The notes below the pieces were generated by a model, which was not told the DNA's origin, did no database searches, and saw nothing but the letters and a program-made list of their open reading frames with translations. A stretch of DNA of 64,000 nucleotides from assembly GCA_017645275.1 (NCBI GenBank), contig JAGCPH010000020.1, forward strand, positions 106,986 to 170,985. Reading direction: 5' to 3'. Below, in pieces: positions 105-57,813 of this stretch. Source of the stretch: Bacteroidales bacterium (GTDB taxonomy: Bacteria > Bacteroidota > Bacteroidia > Bacteroidales > F082). The translations under genes were made by a program, and so were the position numbers. How positions within the stretch are numbered: position 1 is the stretch's first letter; every line of letters starts with the position of its first letter.

Positions 105-320
105 ATTGTAATACAAAGTATCATGTAGAAAGCAACACAGACATATAAAAAATAGCGTTTGTAGCTATTCCTTGACGCTCAAATTTCCACAAGTCTTTAC
201 GACAAAACCAATCAAGGAGGAGTTCACAAACGCCGTATTCGTTTACGGCGTGGAACGACTTGTTAGATTGGTGGGCGTGGAAACCCGAGCGTCAGGCAAG
301 TCGGTCTCCACGCCTTTTTT
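105..320 (+). promoter_or_regulatory. Structured leader RNA (candidate cis-regulatory RNA or sRNA)
   Basis: This non-coding stretch has several perfect complementary segments: 155-162 with 226-233, 169-175 with 212-218, 231-236 with 245-250, 173-180 with 287-294, and a split helix 247-254/257-262 with 297-302/307-314. The last ends at a T-run, 315-320. Some pairings share bases (169-175 and 173-180; 245-250 and 247-254), so alternative folds are possible, as expected of an attenuator or riboswitch. The downstream operon encodes T9SS cargo and peptidases. It could instead be a free-standing sRNA ending at the terminator. I do not recognise the family with confidence; a covariance-model search would decide. 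Confidence 0.6.
247..320 (+). terminator. Intrinsic terminator at the end of the leader
   Basis: GGCGTGGA plus GACTTG (247-262) pairs with CAAGTC plus TCCACGCC (297-314), followed by six T (315-320). It lies 49 bp before the start codon of the first operon gene, so it would stop transcription before the operon unless the 5' part of the leader forms a competing structure. Confidence 0.65.
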
Positions 321-368: not shown

Positions 369-3300
369 ATGAAAAAACTCTTTATCCTTACAATCATGGC
401 TTTGACAGGCATGGTATGCTTAGCCCAAAGCAACAACAACGAAGACGAGGTGGTGAAGATTGACTGGTACAACCAGCACGCCACCAAAGAGGGCGAACTT
501 ATTGTGAAGTTTGCTGACAACACAACATTACAACTGCAGAACGACAACCGCGGCATGCTTCAAACTACTGGTATGCAAAAGGTTGACGCATTGCTGCAAC
601 AATATCCTGTGGCAAGAGCCGAGCGTCTCTGTCCGAACGATAACCCTAACCGTGAACTTAAAGTATCAAAATCATACAATGGTCCAGATGTGGTGGAGCG
701 TGACCTCAGCCGCCTCTGCCGTTTCGTGATGGAAGACCAGATGCAGACATACCAGATGATTGAAGCATTGAATGAGCTCGACGAAGTCGAGTTCGCTGAA
801 CCAAACTACATGGCGTTTGCTCTAGGCGGCACTAATGCCCTTAACGCCCTTAATGGCCTTAACGCCCCTAAGGCCGCCGCTCCAGCACCAGCTGACGGCG
901 ACCCTAAACCAGGCTCCTACCACAATACTTGGGCCTACACTCATTCGCCATTGTATTCACTCCAATGGGGCATAAGCGCTGTTCACCTCCCGGAACTCTG
1001 GGCTGCCGACCAAAACAACAACAATGAGCGTGCTATTATAGCTATCCTCGATACTGGCGTTGACATCGAACACCCTGATCTCGCAGCCAATATATGGACC
1101 AACCCTGGCGAGACAAACAACGGATACGATGACGACAACAATGGCTTTGCCGACGATATCCACGGATGGGATTTTGTTAATCATACAGGCGATATGCACG
1201 ACTGGAACAGCCACGGCACACACTGCGCAGGTATAGCAGCCGCTGTTGGTGATAACGGTGTCGGAATTACAGGCGCCAATCCGAAAGCATACATTATGCC
1301 GATTGCTGTTTTACAAAGCAACGGAACTGGCGATATAGCCACCATTATCCAAGGTATTAACTATGCTAAGAATAATGGTGCCAATGTGTTGAATATGAGC
1401 TTCGGTAGCTACAGTTACTCAATAGCTTTAGAACAAGCACTCGGACAAGCATACCAGAATGCAGTATTGGTGGCTGCTGCTGGTAATGATGGGATAAGCA
1501 TGAGACTTCCTGGTTGTACGGAACCTAATGCTGATATGTTTCCAGCAGCATTAACATTCGTTTTTGGTGTAGAAGCAACACAACAGGTTTATGGGCAATG
1601 TGGCTATACAACTTGTTGGACCAATTTCGACTGCGATGGTCCTTCATATTCTCAGTATGACGAGGAACAACTTTACAATTACGAACTGCAAGCACCTGGC
1701 GCAATAATTTACAGCACTGTGCCTAATGGTTATTACAAAGCATATAGTGGAACTTCAATGGCTTGTCCTTTGGTGGCTGGCGGTATTTCAGCTTTGCTTC
1801 ATGCCAAGCCATACGCTTCGCAAGAAATGTTATGGGGTGATTTGATTAACACAGCAGGCAATCATGTTAACTTCAAGGCTTGCTACGATGCTGGCGATGC
1901 TCCTGCACAATTGAATTTCGTTTGCATGGAATTAAACGATACAATTGCGGGCGATGGCGACTATCGTCCTGATGCAGGTGAGACAATTTACATGTATCCT
2001 ACACTCCGCAGCACATGGGGAGCCACCGACAACATTATGATGTGGCTAACTGTTGATGAATATGAAGATCCTAATATTGTTACATTCTTAGATGAAAACC
2101 ATGTAGCTTTCGGACAAAGCATTTCTGCTTATGCAAAGAGCAAATCAGCTAATCCATTAAGATTTACTATAAATCCTGAATGTGCCGATGGAAGATATAT
2201 AAATATGGTTCTTCACTTAACAGCTAATCCAACACAATACCAACTAAATGTGCATTTTACAATACAAGTGGAAAATGGAGTTGAGCTTTCTGGTATGATT
2301 ACTGATACGGTTACTCTCTATCCTGATAAGCATTATATTGTGACAAGTAATTTGGCATTGACTGAGACGGGCTATTTGATAATAAAACCAGGAACTACAT
2401 TGAAATTAAAGGACAATGTTAGTATATCAAATTCCGGACGAATATATGCAGTTGGAACCCCAGATAGTTTAATTAATTTTACCAAAACTGATTTAGGGAG
2501 TCAATGGGGACGTATGAGGTTAAATTATCAAGATACTATCGGTTATGCAATAATTCAATACATGAATGGTGAGATATCCTCTGGTTATAAACAAAATGGT
2601 TATATAGATGTTAACGGTGTTAGTTTGTATAATTATCAATTGGCTCTTATTCATAATTCAATTATTAGAGATAATACTATGTATTGTCATTATGGCAATA
2701 TTCCTGTTATCTCAAATTCCAATTTGAACTATAATATAGGAGCGCCTGAACCGTTTTTTTATGGTTCTTTAGGTGGGTATTATTATTTTAACACACAATT
2801 TGTTGATGCTCCTAACTATTATCAAAACAATAATGTTACTAAAAATGTTTTTAAAAGACCTAATACTGAAGAGTTGAAAAATATTAGTTTTGAAAGAGAT
2901 GATTCTTATTGGCTTAATAGGGTTTTTATGCCTTTAATACATTCAAATTGGTTTAGTAATAATAATATAGAGCTGTCTATATATACTGACTCTCCGGGAG
3001 AATTAACTATTTATTCAGGTTTTTATTTGGGTAGTGCTCGTGAAGATATTGTTCGTAGACATATTTATGATTTTGATACTCCAAACTCAACTACTTTTGG
3101 TCGCTTCAATTTAGATAATATGGCAACTCAACCAGTATCTGAAGCCCACGGCATTGTTTGGAAAGTTGTCGTCAACGGCTATGATGCTCAGGATGAGTTC
3201 GAACAGTTGCCTCCATTAGGTTGTGGTACTCATGAATTTAAAGTGTATTTCAATCGTCCGATGGATAAATCGGTTACACCATTTATTTCAATTGGAGTTC

Positions 3301-4655
3301 GTCCTCCATATACACAGCACGCTATTTCTGAAAATGGTTCATGGAATGAAGAAGGTACAATTTACACGGCATATCTTACCATTAATGGTTCCACCGCAAC
3401 AGACGGATTAAATAGGATTTATGTTGCAAACGCACAAGACGACGAACATTTTGAAATTCCTATTGAGGATTTCCGTTTCAATGTGCAGGTGGCTTCAGCA
3501 GGCTCGTTGAGTAATGAGTTTATGGCCACTCCAGGTCTCGGCAAAGTGGATTTGGAATGGAATAACAACGAGGGAGATTTTGAGGATTATCTTGGTTATA
3601 ATATGTACAGATATCGTTATGACAGTGTACTTATTGCAGGTCATTATGATAACAACTGGAATTGGATAGAACCATATAAAGAATGGATGGCCACAGATTC
3701 AATCCAGCTTAATACTTCGTTGGTACAAGATACTTTATTTACAGATTACGATGTAATTCCAGGCCAGCGTTACTACTATTATTATAAGGTGATGCGTACA
3801 AACCTTACTGAGAGCGACGCTTCATTAACAGTAACAACAGTGCCGCTCACTGCAACAAAAGGCGATGCCAACGGCAGTATGGCGGTAGATGTGGCCGACG
3901 TGGTAACTATAGTTTCATACCTCACTAACGGCAATCCGCAACCATTCATCTTCGATGCAGCCGATGTCAACTCAGACGGCAATATCGACATTTTGGACAT
4001 TGTGGCGGTAATCAACATCATCACCAGCAGGGGAGAGATTCCAGGAAAAGACCCTGTGGCAACAGCATATTACAGCTTAGACAACGGTGTTTTGTTTGTC
4101 GATACTCCAGTGGAGCTTGGCGGCGTACAGTTTGTGTTTGAAAATATTGATAGTCAGTCAATTGAAACATTGCAGTCGTTAAATGGCTTTGAAAATGTGA
4201 AAGTTGATGTAAGCAACGGCTCAATGTTCTTGGCCTACAGTATGAGCGGCAATAAACTTCCAGCAGGCAAACATGCATTGCTACGCATAGGTGATGGCAC
4301 AATAGCATCAGTAGCATTGTCGGATGTAACAGGCCACAACGTGTTGGCAATAGAATCGGGCGCAGGTGTTGAGGAAAACGAGACATTGTTTATGTCACAG
4401 CCATATCCGAATCCCTTCAACGGCACGCTTACAATACCGTATATCATTGGTAATGAAAGTGTTGCAAACGTATCGTTTACCATCTTTAACATCGTAGGCC
4501 AGACAGTCGACCACATCAATCTCGGCACACAGAGCCGTGGCGAATATACCTACGAGTGGACTCCAAACAACGGCATGGCAGCAGGTATTTATACCGTGCT
4601 CATGGAGGTTAACGGTCGTAATGTTCAACATTCTAAAGTGGTTTACGTAAAATGA
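369..4655 (+). CDS. Subtilisin-like serine protease with dockerin and T9SS sorting domain
   Basis: Secreted S8 (subtilase) endopeptidase of 1428 residues. A signal peptide ends near LAQS. A propeptide-like region (about 25-150) leads into the catalytic domain with the full triad: Asp228 (in LDTGVD), His282 (in HGTHCAG) and Ser463 (in GTSMACP). A long middle region of no recognised family follows (about 520-1150). At about 1164-1225 is a type I-like dockerin with two calcium loops, DANGSMAVDVAD and DVNSDGNIDILD. Next come a cohesin-like beta stretch and a C-terminal T9SS type A domain (from about 1345, starting YPNPFNGT). The stop overlaps the start of the next gene (ATGA), which points to translational coupling. 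Codons 145-175 hold a low-complexity ALN-repeat insertion, and bases about 2050-3130 are clearly more AT-rich than the flanks. Confidence 0.93.
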   Translation: MKKLFILTIMALTGMVCLAQSNNNEDEVVKIDWYNQHATKEGELIVKFADNTTLQLQNDNRGMLQTTGMQKVDALLQQYPVARAERLCPNDNPNRELKVSKSYNGPDVVERDLSRLCRFVMEDQMQTYQMIEALNELDEVEFAEPNYMAFALGGTNALNALNGLNAPKAAAPAPADGDPKPGSYHNTWAYTHSPLYSLQWGISAVHLPELWAADQNNNNERAIIAILDTGVDIEHPDLAANIWTNPGETNNGYDDDNNGFADDIHGWDFVNHTGDMHDWNSHGTHCAGIAAAVGDNGVGITGANPKAYIMPIAVLQSNGTGDIATIIQGINYAKNNGANVLNMSFGSYSYSIALEQALGQAYQNAVLVAAAGNDGISMRLPGCTEPNADMFPAALTFVFGVEATQQVYGQCGYTTCWTNFDCDGPSYSQYDEEQLYNYELQAPGAIIYSTVPNGYYKAYSGTSMACPLVAGGISALLHAKPYASQEMLWGDLINTAGNHVNFKACYDAGDAPAQLNFVCMELNDTIAGDGDYRPDAGETIYMYPTLRSTWGATDNIMMWLTVDEYEDPNIVTFLDENHVAFGQSISAYAKSKSANPLRFTINPECADGRYINMVLHLTANPTQYQLNVHFTIQVENGVELSGMITDTVTLYPDKHYIVTSNLALTETGYLIIKPGTTLKLKDNVSISNSGRIYAVGTPDSLINFTKTDLGSQWGRMRLNYQDTIGYAIIQYMNGEISSGYKQNGYIDVNGVSLYNYQLALIHNSIIRDNTMYCHYGNIPVISNSNLNYNIGAPEPFFYGSLGGYYYFNTQFVDAPNYYQNNNVTKNVFKRPNTEELKNISFERDDSYWLNRVFMPLIHSNWFSNNNIELSIYTDSPGELTIYSGFYLGSAREDIVRRHIYDFDTPNSTTFGRFNLDNMATQPVSEAHGIVWKVVVNGYDAQDEFEQLPPLGCGTHEFKVYFNRPMDKSVTPFISIGVRPPYTQHAISENGSWNEEGTIYTAYLTINGSTATDGLNRIYVANAQDDEHFEIPIEDFRFNVQVASAGSLSNEFMATPGLGKVDLEWNNNEGDFEDYLGYNMYRYRYDSVLIAGHYDNNWNWIEPYKEWMATDSIQLNTSLVQDTLFTDYDVIPGQRYYYYYKVMRTNLTESDASLTVTTVPLTATKGDANGSMAVDVADVVTIVSYLTNGNPQPFIFDAADVNSDGNIDILDIVAVINIITSRGEIPGKDPVATAYYSLDNGVLFVDTPVELGGVQFVFENIDSQSIETLQSLNGFENVKVDVSNGSMFLAYSMSGNKLPAGKHALLRIGDGTIASVALSDVTGHNVLAIESGAGVEENETLFMSQPYPNPFNGTLTIPYIIGNESVANVSFTIFNIVGQTVDHINLGTQSRGEYTYEWTPNNGMAAGIYTVLMEVNGRNVQHSKVVYVK
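833..880 (+). repeat. In-frame iterated TTAA(C/T)GCC repeat inside the subtilase
   Basis: Short units of TTAACGCC and TTAATGGC type are reiterated here and encode an Ala-Leu-Asn-rich linker between propeptide and catalytic domain. The 12-mer TAATGCCCTTAA is shared with the large palindrome at 28991-29050, suggesting that a mobile or expanding palindromic sequence entered the coding region. Confidence 0.55.
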
Positions 4656-7600
4656 GAAACATATTATTAACAATAATAATGCTGCTTGCCACGTTGTCGG
4701 TCAAGGCCGATAACGTGGTTGCGGTGTCATCGGCGAGCGGTCACCCAGGCGACGAGCTCACGTTGCAGCTCTCGCTAAGCAACACCGATGCGGTGGTGGC
4801 ATTACAAACGGAGATTCCGCTTGGCGACAACCTCACTTACGTCGCCAATTCGGTGGAGCTCAACGCCGACCGCATCACCGACCACAGCGTCACAGCAGCA
4901 GTGGTGGGCGGAAACCTCCGTATTTTCGCCTACTCATTGAGCCTTACGCCATTTGTTGGCAATGAAGGCACCCTTCTGAGTTTCACTTTGAAACTGAAAA
5001 ACGAACCCGGTGACAATACTATAGACGCTACAGCCTCTAAACTCTCTAATGCTTCTGGCGAAGCCTTAAGTTTCACAGCAAACAATGGTGTTGTCACAAT
5101 TTTATCGCCAAAGATTCAAATCAATACTGGCACCATCAACTACGGTCATGTGCCTATTTGGAGTGAATACAACGGAACAGCGCAAGTAACGAATGTCGGC
5201 AATGAGCCGCTTACGTTAACTGAAATGAGTTTCAGTGATGCGGTTTTCAGCTGTCCATCATTTGCCGAAACCACGATACAAGCTGGTCAAAGCGCGAGTT
5301 TTACAATAAAATTCGCCCCGATAGTGAAAGGTGCTGTTAATGCGACAGCGACTATCGTTTCAAACTCAATTTCCGGCAATGGCGTAATTAGCCTTGTGGC
5401 TGACCCGTTTGCGGTCAATGAGGTACATATTGAGAACACCAGCGGCTATTGCGACAGCATTGTCAATGTGCCTTTGAGAGTCAATAATATGGAGCAACTC
5501 ATTGGTTTCCAATTGGATATGAAGATGCCGACGGCTCTGGAGTATGTCGGCTTTGAATTGAGTTCAAGAAAAACCGACCATGTTTGCACAGGCGTTGTGT
5601 ATAACGATACATTGCGTGTGATGGCATATTCGCCTACAGGCTCAGCATTTACTGGCGATGACGGTATTGTGGCATATATCAAGGTGCGTCTGCATGGTCT
5701 TTACGGTTATTATTATCTCAACCCATTCAAGTCGGTGCTTGCCGATGCGGTGGGCGAGAACGTGCTTTCTGAGAAATATCAAGGCTATGTCAACATCAGA
5801 AGCCCGAGAATTAGCGGAAATTCATCGCTCGACATGGGTAATTCTTCGGTAACAGAGACGGTGACAAAAGAATATGTCGTTACCAATAATGGCAATGCCC
5901 AGATGCGTATCGACAATGTGGTGTTCGACCAGCAGGACTGGGCTGTGGCTGAGACATTCCCGCTAACGGTGGAGCAGTACTCCAACACCACTTTGCATGT
6001 GAGCTACAGCCGTGAGCTGAAGGGCGATTTCACCGCTACGATGAAGATTTACAGCAACGACCCGCAGGACGGCTTGAAAAACGTGGCATTGAGCGGTCAT
6101 CGATACGAGCCTAACAGTCTCTCAATTGAAGCCGACCCGTTCATTTTGGACGAGGGCGACATCGCTGTGGCAATCTCCATGGACAACTATACCGACATCG
6201 TGGCTCTGCAAGCCGATTTCGTGTATCCATATCAAGATTATTCGGTTGCCCAATCCGATTTTGAGTTGGCTGAACGTATTGAAAACCATACGCTTTACGC
6301 AGTGGCCACCAACGATTCCACTTATCGTGTTATGGTCTTCTCGATGCAAAACGCCGAAGTTGAAGGCAATGATGGCGTAGTTTTGAACGTCACCATGCAT
6401 CCAATCGGCGAGCCAGAGGACAAAAATTACCTTGTCTCGGCTAAAAACATAGTGTTGAGTGGCCATTCAGGAGCCAATGAGCTATCGGGAAAGGATGTTT
6501 CAACAAGTTACAGACTTACTACAACACATTCTGAATCAATGGTTGCAGGCTGGAACTGGTATTCGACATACATTGAGCAGGACGATATCGACGGACTCAC
6601 CATGCTTGAAAATTCACTGGGAAATGATGGTTTATACATCAAATCACAAACCTCATCAGTGCAAAACTACTACCCATCAATACAATATAACTATTGGTAT
6701 GGTTCTCTGTCAGTGCTACAGAATGAGAGTAGCTATATGATAAAAGTGTCGGATAATTGCGAAGCTGAGATTTCAGGTAAACCTAGTAAATCTCAAGATC
6801 ATCCAATAACTTTAAATCATAATTGGAACTGGATAGGATATCCTGTGGGTACTTCACAGACGGTAGGGGCTGCCATGTCGGGCTTTACACCTTCGGCCAA
6901 CGATGTCATAAAGAGACAGAACGCGTCGTCGACATATTATGTTGGTTACGGCTGGTTCCCGGAATTCACTATGACGCCGGGTGTGGGATATTATTACAAG
7001 TCGACGGCCAATGAAGCTAAGACACTTACGTTTTCCAATAGTGGCAGTAATGCTAAATTAGATGACGAGTTGACATATTGGACCAGTAATTGTCATGCTT
7101 ATGCAAATAATCTTACTATTATTGCGTCTGTGACTTGTGGATTCGTGGATGTTTCGTCTGATGGCTATGAACTAGGTGCGTTTGTGAATGGTGAATGTCG
7201 AGGTAGTGTTAGACTTGAATACTTCAAACCATTGAACAAATATTATGCTGTTCTTACAGTAAGTGGAGAAGAAAGTGACAATATTACTTTTGGTATTGTA
7301 AACAGGAACACGGAAACTGAGAACTTCAATTGCTGGCAGAGCGTCACATTCACTGCAGATGCAGTGATTGGAACACTTGATAATCCAATGCAAATAGATT
7401 TCTTGACCACCAACGGTATCATATCAGATATGTCTGTGTACCCCAATCCTATTGGTCGCAATCAAGAGTTTTCGGTTACTATACCGGATTGGGAAAAAGC
7501 ATCTAATATGCTGATAACAAATGCTTTGGGCGAAGTTGTATGTGAAAAATCGGTTGCTGGGACAGTGTACAAAGGATTGAATACGTCAGGAGTGTATCTC

Positions 7601-7657
7601 GTGAGAGTTATATGCGAATCAGGCAATGTTTATTTTAACAAATTGATAGTAAAATAA
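4652..7657 (+). CDS. Scaffold-like T9SS protein with three cohesin-like domains
   Basis: Secreted 1001-residue protein; signal peptide about 1-19. Three related beta-sandwich repeats (about 20-150, 255-380, 489-610) share a pattern like that of cohesin domains: an opening SGHPGDELT-type segment, VVALQTEI-like strand, LRIFAYS-like strand and GNEGTLLSF-like strand. Between them sit two choice-of-anchor/HYDIN-like Ig domains (about 152-250, 383-485). Residues 629-795 are a GWNWYSTYIEQ module also found in the next gene, and about 810-917 hold a GAFVNGECRG domain. A T9SS sorting domain closes the protein (about 926-1001). Cohesins bind dockerins, and the gene just upstream carries one, so a surface scaffold role is a reasonable inference. 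The cohesin call is by eye and the binding partner is unproven. Confidence 0.75.
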   Translation: MRNILLTIIMLLATLSVKADNVVAVSSASGHPGDELTLQLSLSNTDAVVALQTEIPLGDNLTYVANSVELNADRITDHSVTAAVVGGNLRIFAYSLSLTPFVGNEGTLLSFTLKLKNEPGDNTIDATASKLSNASGEALSFTANNGVVTILSPKIQINTGTINYGHVPIWSEYNGTAQVTNVGNEPLTLTEMSFSDAVFSCPSFAETTIQAGQSASFTIKFAPIVKGAVNATATIVSNSISGNGVISLVADPFAVNEVHIENTSGYCDSIVNVPLRVNNMEQLIGFQLDMKMPTALEYVGFELSSRKTDHVCTGVVYNDTLRVMAYSPTGSAFTGDDGIVAYIKVRLHGLYGYYYLNPFKSVLADAVGENVLSEKYQGYVNIRSPRISGNSSLDMGNSSVTETVTKEYVVTNNGNAQMRIDNVVFDQQDWAVAETFPLTVEQYSNTTLHVSYSRELKGDFTATMKIYSNDPQDGLKNVALSGHRYEPNSLSIEADPFILDEGDIAVAISMDNYTDIVALQADFVYPYQDYSVAQSDFELAERIENHTLYAVATNDSTYRVMVFSMQNAEVEGNDGVVLNVTMHPIGEPEDKNYLVSAKNIVLSGHSGANELSGKDVSTSYRLTTTHSESMVAGWNWYSTYIEQDDIDGLTMLENSLGNDGLYIKSQTSSVQNYYPSIQYNYWYGSLSVLQNESSYMIKVSDNCEAEISGKPSKSQDHPITLNHNWNWIGYPVGTSQTVGAAMSGFTPSANDVIKRQNASSTYYVGYGWFPEFTMTPGVGYYYKSTANEAKTLTFSNSGSNAKLDDELTYWTSNCHAYANNLTIIASVTCGFVDVSSDGYELGAFVNGECRGSVRLEYFKPLNKYYAVLTVSGEESDNITFGIVNRNTETENFNCWQSVTFTADAVIGTLDNPMQIDFLTTNGIISDMSVYPNPIGRNQEFSVTIPDWEKASNMLITNALGEVVCEKSVAGTVYKGLNTSGVYLVRVICESGNVYFNKLIVK
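6821..7026 (+). repeat. Near-identical 206-bp coding repeat, copy 1
   Basis: By hand comparison this segment matches 11929-12134 in the neighbouring gene with roughly a dozen mismatches in 206 bases, including a run of about 50 identical bases near the end. Flanking parts of the shared module are less similar at DNA level. This suggests recent gene conversion or domain shuffling. Confidence 0.8.
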
Positions 7658-7665
7658 TTAATAAT

Positions 7666-10600
7666 ATGAGAAAAGCTTATGTAATTCTGATGGCATTGTT
7701 GCTGTCGATTAGCGTCACAACTTTGGCAAATCCAGTTGATGTTAACATTGCCCAAAGTGTCGGTGCCAAATTTTTGACTGCCAATACTAAAGTGCAACTC
7801 AGAGGCAACGACCTACAACTTGCAAAGACATATAGTATTAACAGAGGCGATGCTGCGTTTTACATTTTCAACGCGCCAAATGGTTTCGTGATTGTTTCGG
7901 CTGATGACTGTGCATATCCTATCTTGGGATACTCAGACAACGGTCGCCAGTTTGATATCAACAACATCCCGATTCAGCTTCAGGATGTCTTGCAAGAATA
8001 TCAGGATCAAATCCAATATGCTGTTGAGAACAACCTTGTTGCCGACGAAAAGACCGCTGAGCAATGGCGCATGGTGAAAGCTACCGGCAAACTCAGTAAC
8101 AACAGAGACAACACCCAAGTCGGTCCACTTTTGACAACCACTTGGGACCAGGGACAGTATTACAATGCGATGTGCCCGGAAGATGAAAACGGCCCTGATG
8201 GACATTGTGTAACTGGCTGTGTGGCTACGGCAATGGCGCAGATTATAAAGTATTGGGGGTATCCGGAACAGGGTAGAGGTAGTCATAGCTACAATGTTTC
8301 CGGGGCAGATCCGGGAAGTTTTAATGGTAATGTTAATACAACGGGATACGGAACTTTATATGTTGATTTCGAAAATGCTACATACGACTATAATAACATG
8401 CCTAATGTATTAAACGATGAAAGCACCCAAGAAGAGATTGATGCTGTCGCTCAACTGATGTACCATTGTGGAGTCGCGGTAAATATGATGTATAGTGCAG
8501 GTGAAAGCGGAGCTCAAGAAGAGGATGTGCGTTGCGCTTTAATTAGTTATTTTGGCTATATTCAATCATTGGGCTATGCTCAAAGGCAAATGTACTCTGA
8601 TGGTGAATGGGCGGATACTTTAAGAGCAAATATTAATAGGGGGGAACCCGTGCTATATTGTGGAAGAAGTATATTTGCTGCTCATGCCTTTGTTTTGGAC
8701 GGCTACAATCAAGATGATTTTTATCATTTCAATTTTGGTTGGGGTGGTGATGGAGATGGTTGGTTTCAGACATCTGCAATATATCCATCGTTTAGTTTCA
8801 ATGAATGGCAATCTGCAATTATGGGTATTCGTCCAAATGGCGATTCACATAATATTATTTGCCAAAAACAAATGGGTTTTCAAAATATTGACAACTTTAT
8901 GGTATCAGAGCCTGTTCATCTGTATACGATGAGGGCAGGCAGTGAGTATAAAGCTGTTAATGAGATGCGGGGGGTTGGAATTGATCTAAATCTTGTACCC
9001 GAGAATAGTTCGGGACAATTGGTACTCGATGTACTTGATTTTGGCATGGAACAATCGGTTGTTATTTATGATGGTGTTAACAAGGATTCGCTTGTGCGTG
9101 TTATTGAAACTCGACACCTTGATGATTATACTACGGTGACATATCATACGTGGTTATATGATGGCCTGCCATCTGACACAGTTTTCCAAAATATGGCTGG
9201 TACGGATTTTTCACCAATAGTATCTACACGTCACGGTTTTACAGTAGTGGTATATAGTTACGGTGGTATGCCTGAAAGCTTCCATTTACAGGTGAGAAAT
9301 TCTACAGATATTAATCCGAACACTCCATGTATAGATAATATATATTGGACAGATATAGTGACATCAGAACCTGATGGCTATTTATTAGATGGTGATACCA
9401 TTAGGATATCTTCTGCAGAGGGATTGGCGTGGTTGTCTCATTGTATAGACTATATTCAGTATTCTCAATTAGTAATTTCTATAGAAAATGATATAGATTT
9501 AGGCGGATACCTTTGGATGCCCATAAGTTTATGGGGTGGAAATGTAAACGGTAATGGTCATGTGATTCAAAACATGGTAGTCAGTGCTTCAAGCAATGGA
9601 GGTTTGTTTTCATTATTAGGTTATTCAGACATTTCAGATTTAGGAATGATAAACGCTAAGGTTAATTCGGTAAATGCTGCAGGCACCATTGCGGGATATG
9701 TAAGTAATTGCAAAATAGAGAATTGCTATTCAATACAACATATAGTTAATTCAGGAAATAGTCAGGGCGGCGGTTTGATAGGTAGTGCAAACTATGGGAC
9801 TCAAATAAACAATTGTTATGCTTATGGCAATGTTTGTGCGCAGTTTGGATGTGGTGGCCTGGTCGGCTATTTAAGCAATTCTGAGGTAAATAACTGCGTG
9901 ACTCAATTAGGTGAGATTTTTAACTGGTTTTCGCTATATGGATGGACAGGTCTTATTACAGAGGAGGTACATGGTGGTACTTTCTCAAACTGCTTTTCTG
10001 ATATCAGTATTGCTAAACGTAGTTGGACCTCTCAAGGCCCAGAATACGATTATATGGCCAAACGAGCTTATTTTCTAGGAAATGTTTATAATGTTGATGC
10101 CATCGAGAATCTTGCTGCATTTAACATCTTTAATGACCCGACAGGAACACTTATTGCTGATACAGCGGTAAACTATACATTTGATGATCATATGGATGTG
10201 ATCACAGCCTTAAATAATAAGGTGGCAGAGTACAATTCACCAAATCTAAGGACTTGGGTTAGAGATGAAGTGACCCATATGCCGGTGTTTAGTGACTTTT
10301 ATGAAGTTACTTGTCCAAATGTTAGCAATATTACAGCCGAGAACATCCCATACAATGGTAGTTTTGCGGTTGCTTTGTCATGGCAGGAAAATGGCGATGC
10401 TGAAGAATGGCAAGTTAAATACAATATTAAAAACGCACCGGAAGAAGATGCTGTTATTATTACTACAAACACAACGCAAAACACACTTGAAGGACTATCG
10501 TTGGGCAATGAATATAGCTTCTATGTGAGACCTATTTGTGGTGAAGAAACCATCGGCTGGGGACGACCATTAAATTTTGTGGTTGACAAGATGCTATGGA

Positions 10601-12762
10601 TAGATGCGGTAACCTATTGTCCGGCAGGATATAGCGAAGACAGCAATGGCAACGTGACAATATCCTCGCCTGAAGGCTTGGCTTGGCTCGCCAAAATGGG
10701 TTTTGATTACCGACAAGATACAGTTTTCATAATTAGCGACCTTGATATGGGCGCCTACAAATGGACTCCGATATGCCGTTATAATTTCCAAGCCACAATC
10801 GAAGGCAATAATCATACAATATCAAATCTCTATTGTAAAGAAGATATAAGGGACGACAATTCTAGATACATTGGGCTTATCGGTCAGGCAAGAAACGCAT
10901 CACTTAAAAATATTATTATCGAAAACGGCTCATTTGAGGGCAATGCTTATGTGGGTAGCTTGTTTGGCGTGGCTTTTGAATCAACTGTTGTTAATTGTCA
11001 TGCGGTAAATGTTGTGGCCAAAGGAACATGGACTGTAGGAGGATTAGGTGGAATTGTCAGTTCCGATGGTGGTGCTTGTATAACATATAATTGTTCGGCT
11101 ACGGGAGAGATTTATGGCGACCAGGCTGCTGGAGGATTGCTGGGTGGTCATTCTTATGCTGGAATAATGACCAACTGTTATTCAAATTGTGATGTCAGAC
11201 CTTTTGGTTATGGTAATATCTATGAAGGTAGAGGCGGATTGTGCGGCTCGGCTTGCGGAAACATATACAATTGCTATAGTACAGGAACTGTTTTGGGGCA
11301 CGAACTAGACTACGTGAATTCCGTTGGCTCTTTTATGGGATATTTTAATTATGGCGAGCTGAAAAATATTTATGCCACACAATTGGAAGATTATTCTTTT
11401 ATTGGAAAAGCGGAATACGATTATATCATATCTGATACCGCATCATTATCAAATGCTGGCATTATGAATAATGAAATAACCATCGCTGAGACCTCCTACA
11501 CCGACTTGTTGGACGCCCTCAATGCCTGGGTTGACGCCAACAACACCAACGACGAGTACCTGCACTGGGTGGCCGACACCAACAACGAGAACGACGGCTT
11601 CCCGATGCTGGAAAGGCTGCCCGCTACGACAGCACAGATATCAAGCCTCACCACTGGCTGGAACTGGTGGAGCACCTATATCGAACAGGAAGGAGCAAGT
11701 GGCCTTACGGAATTGGAGAGCTCACTTGGCAACGACGGTCTGTATATCAAGACGCAGACCATGTCGGTGCAGAACTACTATCCGTCATTGAACTATAATT
11801 ACTGGTATGGTTCCCTGTCAAGTATACAAAACACGAGCGGATATATGATAAAAATGTCTGCCGACAAAACCATAGCACTTATGGGCACACCGGCCGATCC
11901 CGCAGACCATCCGATAACATTGCAGCCTAATTGGAACTGGATAGGATATCCAGTAGGCACTGCACAGACGGTAGGGGCAGCCATGTCGGGCTTTACACCT
12001 TCGGCAAACGATGTCATAAAGAGACAGAACGCTTCGTCGACATATTATGCCGGTTACGGCTGGTTCCCGGAATTCACTATGACACCGGGTGTGGGATATT
12101 ATTACAAGTCGACGGCCAATGAAGCTAAGACACTGACATTCACCGAAAGCAGAGGCATAACACCAGAAACCGACCAGTACGAGAGGTATTGGGCCAACGA
12201 TGTCCATGCCTATGCCGACAATATGACGGTGATAGCGACGGTGGCTGTAAACGGTGAGGAAATATATGAGGGGAACATCGAATTGGGGGCTTTCGTAAAT
12301 GGCGAGAACCGAGGCAGCGTGAAACTGGAATACTTCGAGCCACTCGACAGATACTTTGCTGTACTTACAGTCAATGCAGATGAAGGAGAGCAAATCACAT
12401 TCGGTATCGTAAACAGAAACACCAATGAGGAAAACTTTAACTGCAGTCAGAGCATCACATTCACGAGAAATGCTGTCGTGGGTATTCTTGATAATCCGAT
12501 AACTCTTGATTTTACTGGAAATGGTTTTACTTCCACAATAACTATGTATCCCAACCCAGTAAAAAAGAACGAGACAATAACATTGGATGTTCAACGCAAC
12601 ACGATAATCACAGAGATTGTTGTCACCGATATGTTGGGCAAAGTGATTGCAAGAGAGTGTGGCGACATACGCAATCTCAGCGGAATCTCGGAAGCGGGAG
12701 TATATAATATTCAAATACTAACAGATTCGGGAAATATAAACAAATTAATAATAGTACAATAA
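7666..12762 (+). CDS. C10 family (streptopain-like) cysteine peptidase, multidomain, T9SS
   Basis: Secreted cysteine peptidase of 1698 residues, related to streptopain and interpain. The signal peptide is followed by a Spi/propeptide inhibitor region (about 20-130: GFVIVSADD, PILGYSDNG). The catalytic Cys185 lies in VTGCVATAMAQI and His340 in AHAFVLDGY, and GWGGDGDGW follows. Downstream are a first GLUG-type beta repeat block (about 560-830), a fibronectin III-like domain (about 885-970), a second GLUG block (about 990-1300), the GWNWWSTYIEQ module and GAFVNGENRG domain shared with the previous gene, and a T9SS sorting domain (about 1620-1698, starting near YPNPV). It starts 8 bp after the preceding stop. 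Composition changes abruptly near 11485 from AT-rich to GC-rich. Both catalytic residues are present, so it is probably active. Confidence 0.92.
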   Translation: MRKAYVILMALLLSISVTTLANPVDVNIAQSVGAKFLTANTKVQLRGNDLQLAKTYSINRGDAAFYIFNAPNGFVIVSADDCAYPILGYSDNGRQFDINNIPIQLQDVLQEYQDQIQYAVENNLVADEKTAEQWRMVKATGKLSNNRDNTQVGPLLTTTWDQGQYYNAMCPEDENGPDGHCVTGCVATAMAQIIKYWGYPEQGRGSHSYNVSGADPGSFNGNVNTTGYGTLYVDFENATYDYNNMPNVLNDESTQEEIDAVAQLMYHCGVAVNMMYSAGESGAQEEDVRCALISYFGYIQSLGYAQRQMYSDGEWADTLRANINRGEPVLYCGRSIFAAHAFVLDGYNQDDFYHFNFGWGGDGDGWFQTSAIYPSFSFNEWQSAIMGIRPNGDSHNIICQKQMGFQNIDNFMVSEPVHLYTMRAGSEYKAVNEMRGVGIDLNLVPENSSGQLVLDVLDFGMEQSVVIYDGVNKDSLVRVIETRHLDDYTTVTYHTWLYDGLPSDTVFQNMAGTDFSPIVSTRHGFTVVVYSYGGMPESFHLQVRNSTDINPNTPCIDNIYWTDIVTSEPDGYLLDGDTIRISSAEGLAWLSHCIDYIQYSQLVISIENDIDLGGYLWMPISLWGGNVNGNGHVIQNMVVSASSNGGLFSLLGYSDISDLGMINAKVNSVNAAGTIAGYVSNCKIENCYSIQHIVNSGNSQGGGLIGSANYGTQINNCYAYGNVCAQFGCGGLVGYLSNSEVNNCVTQLGEIFNWFSLYGWTGLITEEVHGGTFSNCFSDISIAKRSWTSQGPEYDYMAKRAYFLGNVYNVDAIENLAAFNIFNDPTGTLIADTAVNYTFDDHMDVITALNNKVAEYNSPNLRTWVRDEVTHMPVFSDFYEVTCPNVSNITAENIPYNGSFAVALSWQENGDAEEWQVKYNIKNAPEEDAVIITTNTTQNTLEGLSLGNEYSFYVRPICGEETIGWGRPLNFVVDKMLWIDAVTYCPAGYSEDSNGNVTISSPEGLAWLAKMGFDYRQDTVFIISDLDMGAYKWTPICRYNFQATIEGNNHTISNLYCKEDIRDDNSRYIGLIGQARNASLKNIIIENGSFEGNAYVGSLFGVAFESTVVNCHAVNVVAKGTWTVGGLGGIVSSDGGACITYNCSATGEIYGDQAAGGLLGGHSYAGIMTNCYSNCDVRPFGYGNIYEGRGGLCGSACGNIYNCYSTGTVLGHELDYVNSVGSFMGYFNYGELKNIYATQLEDYSFIGKAEYDYIISDTASLSNAGIMNNEITIAETSYTDLLDALNAWVDANNTNDEYLHWVADTNNENDGFPMLERLPATTAQISSLTTGWNWWSTYIEQEGASGLTELESSLGNDGLYIKTQTMSVQNYYPSLNYNYWYGSLSSIQNTSGYMIKMSADKTIALMGTPADPADHPITLQPNWNWIGYPVGTAQTVGAAMSGFTPSANDVIKRQNASSTYYAGYGWFPEFTMTPGVGYYYKSTANEAKTLTFTESRGITPETDQYERYWANDVHAYADNMTVIATVAVNGEEIYEGNIELGAFVNGENRGSVKLEYFEPLDRYFAVLTVNADEGEQITFGIVNRNTNEENFNCSQSITFTRNAVVGILDNPITLDFTGNGFTSTITMYPNPVKKNETITLDVQRNTIITEIVVTDMLGKVIARECGDIRNLSGISEAGVYNIQILTDSGNINKLIIVQ
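11929..12134 (+). repeat. Near-identical 206-bp coding repeat, copy 2
   Basis: Partner of 6821-7026 at a constant offset of 5108 bp. It encodes the NWNWIGYPVGT to EAKTLTF part of the shared module. Confidence 0.8.
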
Positions 12763-12769
12763 ATTATTT

Positions 12770-14638
12770 ATGAAAAAATCATTAATTTTATCATTTTGCT
12801 TGGCGTTGTTCGGTATAACAAGCGCCCAGCATTGGACTCCGATTACTGGTACAGAGTACAATATGACAGTAAACGGGCAAATCTACATTGACGATGTTTT
12901 GCAAACATCGACGACACTGGAAATAGCGGCGTTTTGTGGCGATGAATGCCGCTCAATTGGCCTGTGTCAGCAATTCTTTCTTCCTACGCAAGAGTTTATT
13001 ATTGGCAATCTCACAATTGTCAGTAATGTAATTAGCGGTGAGACTATAACATTTAGGATTTATGATCATAGCACTGACCAAGAACTTGAGCTGAATTGCA
13101 CCAATAATATCACATTTCAACATAATGGTGAAATGGGTAGCATGGGTAATTGGTTCCATTTTGCATTTACCACACCTGTAACTCCGCCAACCACCAACAC
13201 CGGCTCCGGGGACTGGAATGACCCTACAATTTGGGGTGGCACAGAGCCCACGGCAACAGCCAATGTGCAGATTAGCACTGGTGATGTCACAATTGGCGAC
13301 AACGGAGCAGTGGAAGTGACAGTGGCAAGCCTTAATATAGCTTCAGAAGCAACCCTCACAATCGAATCGGGATCAACCCTTATTGTTACAGGTGATATGG
13401 TCAGCGGTAGTGAAGAAAGTCTTGTCATCAAAGACGGTGCACAAGTCATCAACGAGTCGGCCAATGTAAAGGCTACAGCTGAAAAAGATATTACCGCATA
13501 CACAGCCAAAGACACCGACGGATGGTATCTGATCTCGTCATCAGTCAATGAAATGGCTATCGCAGGCAGCGATTTCATTACAGAAACATACGATTTGTAC
13601 CGTTACAATGAGGCTTTGCCTGGCTGGGAGAACTATCGCAACCATTACAATACCGATTTCATGATTTTTGAAAACGGAAGAGGCTATCTTTATGCCAACA
13701 GCAATACGTTTTCACCAGACTTTAAAGGCATGTTGAACTATGACGACGTGACAATTAATGTAACTTACACCGATAGCAAAGACGGTCTGAAAGGTGTCAA
13801 CATAATCGGAAACCCATTCCCACATGTGATTTATAAAGGTAACGGCGGCGCTATCGACAATGCAAATCTTGCGTCGGGCTATTATTCGTTGTCATTTAAA
13901 GGAGCGTGGCAAGCTTGCACTTATGACGACCCAATTCAGCCAGGACAGGGAATTCTTGTGAGAACATCAACGAGCACCAATCTTGTCATAGAAAAGACAA
14001 ATGCTGTGGCAACAGCCGAATCAAGCACATCAAAAGACATTGTAGGCCGTATGAAACTCATGGTTGTTGGCAGCAACAGCGATGATCGCGCTTTCGCTTA
14101 TTTCAGCGAAGGCATAGGTCTAGAGAAAGTGGGAAATATCTCTGAATCGTTGCCAACATTGAGCATTCGAAACAACGGTACAGACTATGCTATTGCACAT
14201 GTTGGCGAGCAATGCGAGGAGATGGATGTTATTTTCAATAACTCAAGAAATGATGATTTTACCATCGAAATTGAGCTGAAAGACATTGATTTTGAATATC
14301 TACACCTTATTGATAACGCCACTGGCAATGATATCGACCTGCTGATTGAACCGAGTTACACATTCCATGCCACAGGTAATGAGATTGATAACCGTTTTAA
14401 AATCATTTTTAGGGAGATAGCAGGCATCGATGAAAACTACGAAAACACGCAGTTCGCTTACATTGCTGGTGACAACCTTATCGTCAGAGGAGAAGGGCCG
14501 CTTCAAATCTTCGACATAGCAGGGCGAATGATTGATACCCATGAATTATCAGGCGTGGAAACTGTTCGTAAACCGTCTCAAACTGGCATGTACATTTTGA
14601 AATTAAATGGTCAAACCCAAAAAATTGTTGTAAGATGA
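12770..14638 (+). CDS. T9SS-exported protein of unknown function
   Basis: 622 residues with signal peptide (cleavage near SAQH). Residues about 20-125 form a domain (LEIAAFCGDECRSIG) resembling the GAFVNGECRG domain of the two preceding genes. A central region after about 150 has a parallel-beta character (repeating VEVTVASLNI, ATLTIESGSTLIVTG), as in many surface adhesins. The last 80 residues are a sorting domain (LQIFDIAGRMID, GMYILKLNGQ) lacking the usual YPNP start but otherwise typical. It begins 7 bp after the C10 gene and its stop overlaps the next start (ATGA), so it belongs to the same operon. A binding or structural surface protein is likely; no enzyme motif is visible. Confidence 0.85.
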   Translation: MKKSLILSFCLALFGITSAQHWTPITGTEYNMTVNGQIYIDDVLQTSTTLEIAAFCGDECRSIGLCQQFFLPTQEFIIGNLTIVSNVISGETITFRIYDHSTDQELELNCTNNITFQHNGEMGSMGNWFHFAFTTPVTPPTTNTGSGDWNDPTIWGGTEPTATANVQISTGDVTIGDNGAVEVTVASLNIASEATLTIESGSTLIVTGDMVSGSEESLVIKDGAQVINESANVKATAEKDITAYTAKDTDGWYLISSSVNEMAIAGSDFITETYDLYRYNEALPGWENYRNHYNTDFMIFENGRGYLYANSNTFSPDFKGMLNYDDVTINVTYTDSKDGLKGVNIIGNPFPHVIYKGNGGAIDNANLASGYYSLSFKGAWQACTYDDPIQPGQGILVRTSTSTNLVIEKTNAVATAESSTSKDIVGRMKLMVVGSNSDDRAFAYFSEGIGLEKVGNISESLPTLSIRNNGTDYAIAHVGEQCEEMDVIFNNSRNDDFTIEIELKDIDFEYLHLIDNATGNDIDLLIEPSYTFHATGNEIDNRFKIIFREIAGIDENYENTQFAYIAGDNLIVRGEGPLQIFDIAGRMIDTHELSGVETVRKPSQTGMYILKLNGQTQKIVVR

Positions 14639-14886
14639 AAAAGATATTATTGATAACTGCATTTTTGACATTCGGTTTGTGCTCATATGCACAAAGCAAT
14701 CGTAACGACAATTTTTTCAATACTTTTGAAGATGTTGGCAATGGTCTCGACAAACCGATAAATGAGAATCCAATAATGCCTGGTGGTCATGGAAATGGTG
14801 GAGACATTAACTTGCCACTTGGCACTGGTCTGTTAATCCTCACTGCTCTCGGTGGCGGATATGCAATAACCCGCAGGAAGCAATAA
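14635..14886 (+). CDS. Short secreted protein with C-terminal Gly-rich membrane segment and basic tail
   Basis: 83 residues: signal peptide (cleavage near SYAQS), a polar Asn/Gly-rich middle, then PLGTGLLILTALGGGYAI followed by TRRKQ. This tripartite end (short Pro/Gly motif, hydrophobic helix, basic residues) resembles C-terminal sorting signals of the kind recognised by exosortases or rhombosortases. Small Bacteroidota proteins with similar tails exist, but I cannot name the family with certainty. The gene is translationally coupled to the T9SS gene before it and is the last of the operon. It may be a small anchored partner of the exported complex. Confidence 0.75.
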   Translation: MKKILLITAFLTFGLCSYAQSNRNDNFFNTFEDVGNGLDKPINENPIMPGGHGNGGDINLPLGTGLLILTALGGGYAITRRKQ

Positions 14887-57692: not shown

Positions 57693-57705
57693 TACAGACA
57701 CAAAA

Positions 57706-57801
57706 GGGTAAGCTACTTATATCGCACCGCTCAACCATCTACCCTTGCTGCCTTCCGACCCTGGGGGAGTTTGACAGGAGCTGGTCGTATAAGACTTACC
57801 C
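57706..57801 (-). ncRNA. ffs: Signal recognition particle RNA (small bacterial type)
   Basis: The minus strand contains the conserved domain IV core AGGGTCGGAAGGCAGCAAGG, with the GGAA tetraloop and asymmetric loop that bind Ffh. The ends GGGTAAG (57795-57801) and CTTACCC (57706-57712) pair to close the hairpin, giving about 96 nt. Four T directly follow. It guides membrane and secreted proteins co-translationally to the Sec/YidC machinery. Ends are inferred from pairing. Confidence 0.93.
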
Positions 57802-57804
57802 GCT

Positions 57805-57813
57805 GCAAAAATA
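57805..57813 (-). promoter_or_regulatory. -7 box of the SRP RNA
   Basis: TATTTTTGC on the minus strand, ending 4 bp before the paired 5' end of the RNA. Confidence 0.75.

Follow-up and report, generated by a model that had tools for sequence, protein, structure and literature searches.

We analysed a 64,000-nucleotide stretch of a Bacteroidales genome (assembly GCA_017645275.1, contig JAGCPH010000020.1; hereafter “the window”), in which a five-gene operon near the start places a dockerin-bearing subtilase directly ahead of a protein with three cohesins. The source is a metagenome-assembled genome (MAG) that is 82 percent complete. All five open reading frames (ORFs) lie on the forward strand, and their coordinates give spacings of −4, +8, +7 and −4 bp in order, in agreement with an earlier interpretation made from the letters alone (the “sequence-only reading”), which had described the genes as overlapping or at most 8 bp apart. 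The genes and their modules are as follows, in window coordinates.

369..4655, +: protein 1 (1428 aa), an S8 subtilase with a long middle part, a dockerin, a cohesin-like module and a type IX secretion system (T9SS) type A tail
3855..4034, +: dockerin of protein 1 (residues 1163-1222), two F-hand-like repeats and a P.PF linker; Pfam 33.1 bits
4047..4361, +: cohesin-like-fold module of protein 1 (residues about 1227-1331), after the dockerin
4404..4643, +: T9SS type A tail of protein 1
4652..7657, +: protein 2 (1001 aa), the scaffold, in which two DUF1573/ASH Ig domains separate the three cohesins, followed by a stretch common to protein 3 and a T9SS tail
4703..5101, +: cohesin 1 (residues 18-150)
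5108..5383, +: first DUF1573/ASH-type Ig domain (residues 153-244), from Pfam, with HYDIN and CEP192 matches
5408..5797, +: cohesin 2 (residues 253-382)
5807..6106, +: second ASH-type Ig domain (residues about 386-485), with NF012200 at 380-472 and a VIA structural match
6104..6511, +: cohesin 3 (residues 485-620), E 7e-34 with a hidden Markov model (HMM) built from this same set of sequences; profile match to the NagJ cohesin 2jh2 at E 0.0065
7436..7654, +: T9SS type A tail of protein 2; TIGR04183 32.4 bits
7666..12762, +: protein 3 (1698 aa), a C10 (streptopain-type) peptidase with a Spi propeptide and a T9SS tail
12770..14638, +: protein 4 (622 aa), a T9SS cargo with no named domain
14635..14886, +: protein 5 (83 aa), small, with a signal-peptide-like N-terminus, a C-terminal hydrophobic stretch and a basic tail (all by eye)

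Pfam matches bear out the predicted succession of a dockerin subtilase and a triple-cohesin protein. Protein 1 matches Peptidase_S8 (E 4.7e-45) and Dockerin_1 (PF00404; E 6.7e-8, 33.1 bits at residues 1164-1218, cut-off 22.9 bits), while protein 2 matches Cohesin (PF00963; E 4.3e-11, 43.6 bits, cut-off 24.1 bits) in three stretches. The C10 assignment of gene 3 likewise holds (Peptidase_C10, E 2.7e-61, plus the Spi inhibitor), and the catalytic motifs are in place in both enzymes (D/H/S of the S8 domain in protein 1, Cys/His of the C10 domain in protein 3). By profile, the dockerin matches the PDB dockerins 6kg9 and 2y3n_B, and the calcium-ligand pattern of its second repeat is complete by eye. 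The stretch just 5′ of it is poorly modelled, matches nothing in Pfam and resembles FN3 by eye only.

Each cohesin of protein 2 was proposed from its sequence to be a candidate for the cohesin fold, and the scaffold does show the cohesin beta-sandwich. AlphaFold models and structural alignment place cohesins 1 and 2 among dockerin-binding cohesins, and the fold assignment thus stands for these two; structural alignment barely covers cohesin 3. Together with the Pfam matches, the alignment rules out that cohesins 1 and 2 are generic Ig domains: the ASH/HYDIN-type Ig domains are the two that lie between the cohesins, not the cohesins themselves. Foldseek of the whole scaffold returns ciliary proteins at the top, which we attribute to these ASH domains, whereas VIA (structural alignment) returns cohesins at the top. 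The NagJ entries are the only PDB cohesins reached by sequence profile, and the Clostridium perfringens modules 2jh2, 2w1n and 2vo8 all stand high in the structural-alignment list.

The T9SS tails attributed to the operon's products were recovered in proteins 1–4, which score 28.6, 32.4, 30.7 and 24.3 bits, respectively, against the NCBIfam model TIGR04183 (cut-off 23 bits). Their N-termini are signal-peptide-like by eye. SprA, by which we judged whether the host possesses the secretion system, is encoded in the same genome (SprA_N, E 2.1e-167), and the subtilases of genus relatives end in sequence that aligns with the T9SS tail in the window.

Conservation of the subtilase–scaffold pair was assessed in 90 genomes drawn from the genus, with protein 1 without its dockerin as the subtilase query. 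The subtilase matches over most of its length in 13 of the 90 genomes (in two pieces in G098 and G111), the triple-cohesin region matches in 13 at E below 1e-160, and these are the same 13 genomes, with both genes on the same contig every time; the probability of identical sets by random draw, phylogeny ignored, is 6e-16. Outside the 13, the subtilase query found two further genomes and a second place in the window's own genome, in each case through its catalytic domain (E 1.7e-31 to 5.8e-31). The cohesin query reached E ≤ 1e-5 in 32/90 genomes. In the 19 of these that lie outside the 13, E is no better than 3.9e-8 and the match mostly covers the Ig domain; in G118 and G149 it covers cohesin 1.

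A wider scan, keyed on one cohesin 2 motif, yielded 33 Bacteroidales loci from named MAGs (including Candidatus Limimorpha caballi, Lentimicrobiaceae, Prevotellaceae and Muribaculaceae), many of them from rumen or herbivore gut according to their record titles; their best segments are between 27 and 68 percent identical to the window's scaffold. In 32/33 loci a dockerin gene stands on the scaffold's strand no more than 2.6 kb from it, the exception (L126) being a contig that begins inside the scaffold gene, and this neighbour shows an S8 domain in 31/32 cases, the gene of L118 being cut by the contig end. The dockerin gene comes first in 30 loci and the cohesin gene in 2; the gap is ≤30 bp in 14 loci, and 5 loci retain the 4-bp overlap. 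On sequence grounds, then, the pairing of subtilase and scaffold is conserved beyond chance.

The pair also appears to be exclusive. The search for further dockerins that the sequence-only reading had called for found one dockerin in the window's genome by profile, and the cohesin profile found three cohesins, all of protein 2. Candidates for additional members were sub-threshold partial matches only, on contigs C35 (a partial Pfam dockerin, E 0.038) and C6 (E 0.20), neither of which was recovered by the profiles built here. Across the 14 pair-bearing genomes, the dockerin profile found exactly one dockerin each (14/14, including 9/9 well-assembled genomes). We regard the conserved pair of dockerin protease and triple-cohesin protein, with no rival dockerin found in the genomes that bear it, as real.

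Each of the three cohesin positions forms a nearly separate group when 109 cohesins are placed in one tree (3 changes, where the least possible is 2 and the shuffled mean 46.9), which suggests that the triple array is old and that each position has been kept as such. The linker P.PF or P.PY occurs in 32/32 subtilase dockerins beside a scaffold (L104–L136), as against 0/10 dockerins in cohesin-free genomes. The scaffold itself ends in a dockerin in 9/33 loci, the window's scaffold carrying none, and in one genome (G040) three dockerin subtilases stand in tandem, followed by two multi-cohesin genes.

A second set was observed in the genus (G083, G113 and G140), in which kelch and/or beta-helix proteins with another dockerin type adjoin scaffolds, large proteins with three or four cohesins (L066 1-14202, L075 3355-11752, L077 584-10804). 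The cohesins of this set form their own clade in the cohesin tree, and two such matched sets would be expected if dockerin type were tied to cohesin type. In other genera of the family, ORFs of ~400 aa each contain a weak cohesin match and a dockerin match close to one another (G019:C15, G036:C32, G046:C9).

We consider it likely that genes 1 and 2 encode a dedicated cohesin–dockerin pair, with the predicted binding yielding a surface protease complex of one enzyme type and three sockets. The tails on both proteins and the SprA of the genome suggest that subtilase and scaffold would be exported via the T9SS, after which the subtilase dockerin would dock onto the scaffold cohesins. Up to three subtilase copies could then sit on each scaffold, at or near the cell surface, with the ASH-type Ig domains as spacers. 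Because the sole dockerin found in the genome is on the subtilase and cohesins were found only on the scaffold, the product would be a one-enzyme protease cluster, not a mixed-enzyme cellulosome. In the herbivore gut, it would probably digest protein from the diet or from microbes. Protein 4 probably has an accessory role; the C10 peptidase may be carried along with the pair, or may act as a second protease that is recruited by other means than a dockerin.

Several observations weigh against this interpretation. The first dockerin repeat has Ser at the usual third ligand position, where we take Asp to be canonical. The dockerin's actual partner, or a competitor for it, could be the cohesin-like module that follows it in protein 1. 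TIGR04183 was recognised in 3/12 scaffolds tested (the window, L104 and L107) and in none of the other nine; the subtilase of the L123 lineage, where the scaffold ends in a dockerin, is likewise without a TIGR04183 match; and protein 1, having its own T9SS tail, needs no scaffold for reaching the surface. Shared ancestry of the relatives means that the locus and genome counts do not represent independent events: L114 and L115 have the same sequence for both proteins, and L107–L109 are near-copies. Finally, among the 24 same-genus genomes with a dockerin above cut-off (149 genomes of the family searched), 18 have a cohesin gene in the neighbourhood and six (G100, G107, G131, G135, G136 and G139) have no cohesin anywhere by profile. 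Dockerins in those six are so kept for another reason or have an undetected partner, and a dockerin is therefore no proof of a cohesin partner.

The six cohesin-free genomes also lend weight to the view that the domains are genuine and yet not partners, the dockerin being a calcium-binding spacer before the T9SS tail and the cohesins adhesin-type Ig modules for other ligands, and non-cellulosomal cohesins are indeed known (2xdh and the C. perfringens modules, both in the structural list). We nevertheless hold this view to be unlikely, given the identical presence sets (13/90), the linked loci (32/33) and the single dockerin of each pair genome, and given that the orphan dockerins are of another subtype, without the paired-type linker. 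The dockerin proteins scanned in the six genomes comprise C25 gingipain-like peptidases, a subtilase, a peptidylarginine-deiminase-type protein, a leucine-rich-repeat protein and two with little else. Two of these genomes (G100 and G136) have tandem dockerin genes (L085 8153-13414 and L092 9600-14718), and the one scanned in each tandem is a C25 gingipain-like peptidase with its dockerin at the extreme C-terminus and no T9SS tail match. In G131 (L090 7662-12484), an S8 peptidase adjoins a Porphyromonas-type peptidylarginine-deiminase-like protein, both ending in a dockerin.

Docking may instead be reciprocal, with the subtilase's cohesin-like module accepting a dockerin (that of a neighbour or, where present, that of the scaffold) and with chains, not a 3:1 cluster, as the outcome. 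The scaffolds that end in a dockerin would suit such head-to-tail assembly, which we find improbable here: the module is short (about 105 residues), the cohesin HMM built here picks it up in just some relatives and misses it in the window, and the window's scaffold is without a dockerin. Equally doubtful is a broader version, in which Bacteroidales possess a separate cohesin–dockerin class for proteolysis, with a dockerin and cohesin-like tandem on the protease, scaffolds of cohesins that in some lineages end in a dockerin, surface protease chains formed by reciprocal docking, and the enzyme's T9SS signal exporting the tail-less scaffolds. If true, it would be the first cellulosome-like machine of the Bacteroidota. 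Least probable is that the scaffold serves as a chaperone or latency factor that holds the subtilase during export or in the periplasm, tail-less scaffolds leaving only by riding on the subtilase: the aligned tails of the relatives' subtilases, the nine scaffolds without a recognised tail and the 4-bp gene overlap in the window and five loci are consistent with it, but the window's scaffold has a clear T9SS tail, divergent or undetected tails are possible elsewhere, and three cohesins exceed a chaperone's need.

The dedicated pair that we favour resembles the cellulosome of Firmicutes in its multi-cohesin scaffold, its dockerin enzyme and its expected surface display, and protein 2 has the make-up of a non-catalytic scaffoldin, i.e., three cohesins and no catalytic Pfam domain. 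A full cellulosome is nonetheless ruled out. The enzyme is a subtilase, T9SS tails take the place of SLH or sortase anchors, and the host belongs to the Bacteroidota; where a cellulosome has several different dockerin enzymes directed at plant cell wall polysaccharide, the single dockerin found in this incomplete genome is on an S8 peptidase. No carbohydrate-binding module (CBM) is among the Pfam matches of protein 2, in which a stretch of ~300 aa after cohesin 3 has no Pfam name. The C. perfringens cohesins differ in lying inside glycoside hydrolases (GHs) of a Gram-positive pathogen. The gingipain–adhesin complexes of Porphyromonas gingivalis are alike in being noncovalent surface complexes of T9SS-exported proteases, and unlike in being held by adhesin domains, not by cohesin and dockerin.

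Counterparts have been proposed from genomes, and we compare them here as far as the available portions of the cited papers describe them. In Candidatus Stygibacter (Cloacimonadota), S8 and C25 peptidases carry dockerins in a proteolytic complex proposed in silico, whose scaffoldin has a surface-attachment domain at its C-terminus (PMC8542988). That scaffoldin differs in its length (3,755 aa), its CBMs and its mixed GH and peptidase clients, and a conserved, exclusive enzyme–scaffold gene pair is not among the features described in that portion (PMC8542988). The planctosome of freshwater Planctomycetes is a proposed cohesin–dockerin machine for polypeptides (PMC6461901), which differs in its phylum, its M12B and M14 metallopeptidases, its lamin-tail anchor and its dockerin–cohesin adaptor (PMC6461901). 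The Limousia mucinolysome is likewise a gut cohesin–dockerin system with some dockerin peptidases, though in Firmicutes and with mucin carbohydrate-active enzymes (PMC12997984). Proteolytic cohesin–dockerin complexes have thus already been proposed in silico (Ca. Stygibacter and the planctosome), and the Bacteroidales gene pair is a new variant.

Reports on the Bacteroidota themselves, again in their available portions, vary. A T9SS-rich rumen Bacteroidetes genome had no cohesins or dockerins, which was called usual (PMC5831590), and in another dataset cohesins occurred only in Firmicutes_A bins (PMC9177762). Elsewhere, cohesins were reported in some Bacteroidetes bins (PMC6071333) and dockerins in some Bacteroidota single-cell genomes (PMC10266427), and of 4333 gut MAGs that encode dockerins as well as cohesins, 78 are Bacteroidetes, for which the authors call for investigation (PMC12997984). 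Within the openly licensed literature, we found no description of a peptidase cohesin–dockerin pair in Bacteroidota.

If the predicted binding is true, scaffolded display would extend beyond polysaccharide work and Gram-positive anchors, and T9SS surfaces would be able to host it. With a single enzyme, a single scaffold carrying three cohesins and no further dockerin found in the genome, the pair offers a minimal system for testing, and position-specific cohesins with matched dockerin subtypes could yield new pairs for protein engineering.

Taken as a whole, the sequence-only reading is partly supported. The five-gene unit stands as the layout of the window but is not a conserved set. The C10 peptidase is ruled out as a core member in the genus, as it is beside the pair in 0/13 other pair genomes, the nearest C10 match among these relatives lying 11.6 kb away (G144). 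The window's own genome holds 11 matches to this peptidase (e.g., on C11, C52 and C8), an expansion of the streptopain type. Protein 3 has no dockerin match, and its GLUG and FN3 matches are below cut-off. It shares with protein 2 a C-terminal stretch of 393 aa that is 58% identical (window 6476-7651 versus 11584-12753) and has no Pfam name except for the T9SS tail; this likeness suggests that the gene for protein 3 exchanged sequence with gene 2. C10 peptidases with a C-terminal dockerin do occur on the pair's contig in L125 (in the next gene group downstream) and L130.

By homology, proteins 4 and 5 are better conserved neighbours of the pair than the C10 peptidase. Homologues of protein 4 follow the scaffold in L104, L107, L108, L110–L113 and L132, and in L106 form one protein with it; homologues of protein 5, which has no family match in the NCBIfam search, stand behind the protein 4 gene in L104, L107, L108, L110, L112 and L132.

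Directly 5′ of the operon lies one further feature.

105..320, +: structured RNA-like noncoding leader with a rod-like fold and a T-run at 315-320

The fold of 105-322 has a z of −5.6, and the DNA upstream of the subtilase in L104 is 85% identical to the leader over 268 columns. Leader-related DNA occurs in 60/90 genus genomes with up to 8 matches per genome, numbers that are lower bounds, many matches being partial and at most 8 candidates having been scored per genome. Among the copies compared (L162–L181), 46 consensus pairs were predicted from 17, and 10/46 show two-sided compensatory change. Over these 17, a terminator-like stem followed by T's keeps 8 to 12 of its 12 pairs and the competing part of the rod 5 or 6 of its 6; the stem and that part of the rod draw on shared bases, which is the layout of a terminator switch. 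A terminator scan found none, its loop limit being 8 versus a leader loop of about 20, and Rfam 15 gave no match above gathering and one at chance level. In 5/18 copies (L162 and L164–L167) the next gene begins 39–45 bases after the match with a start that looks secreted by eye; the other 13 have no common neighbour, 4 of them being without an ORF there. The leader is a candidate for an uncatalogued riboswitch, attenuator or stand-alone RNA. Elsewhere in the window, at 57702-57808 on the reverse strand, lies a Bacteroidales small signal recognition particle RNA (RF04183, 98.6 bits).
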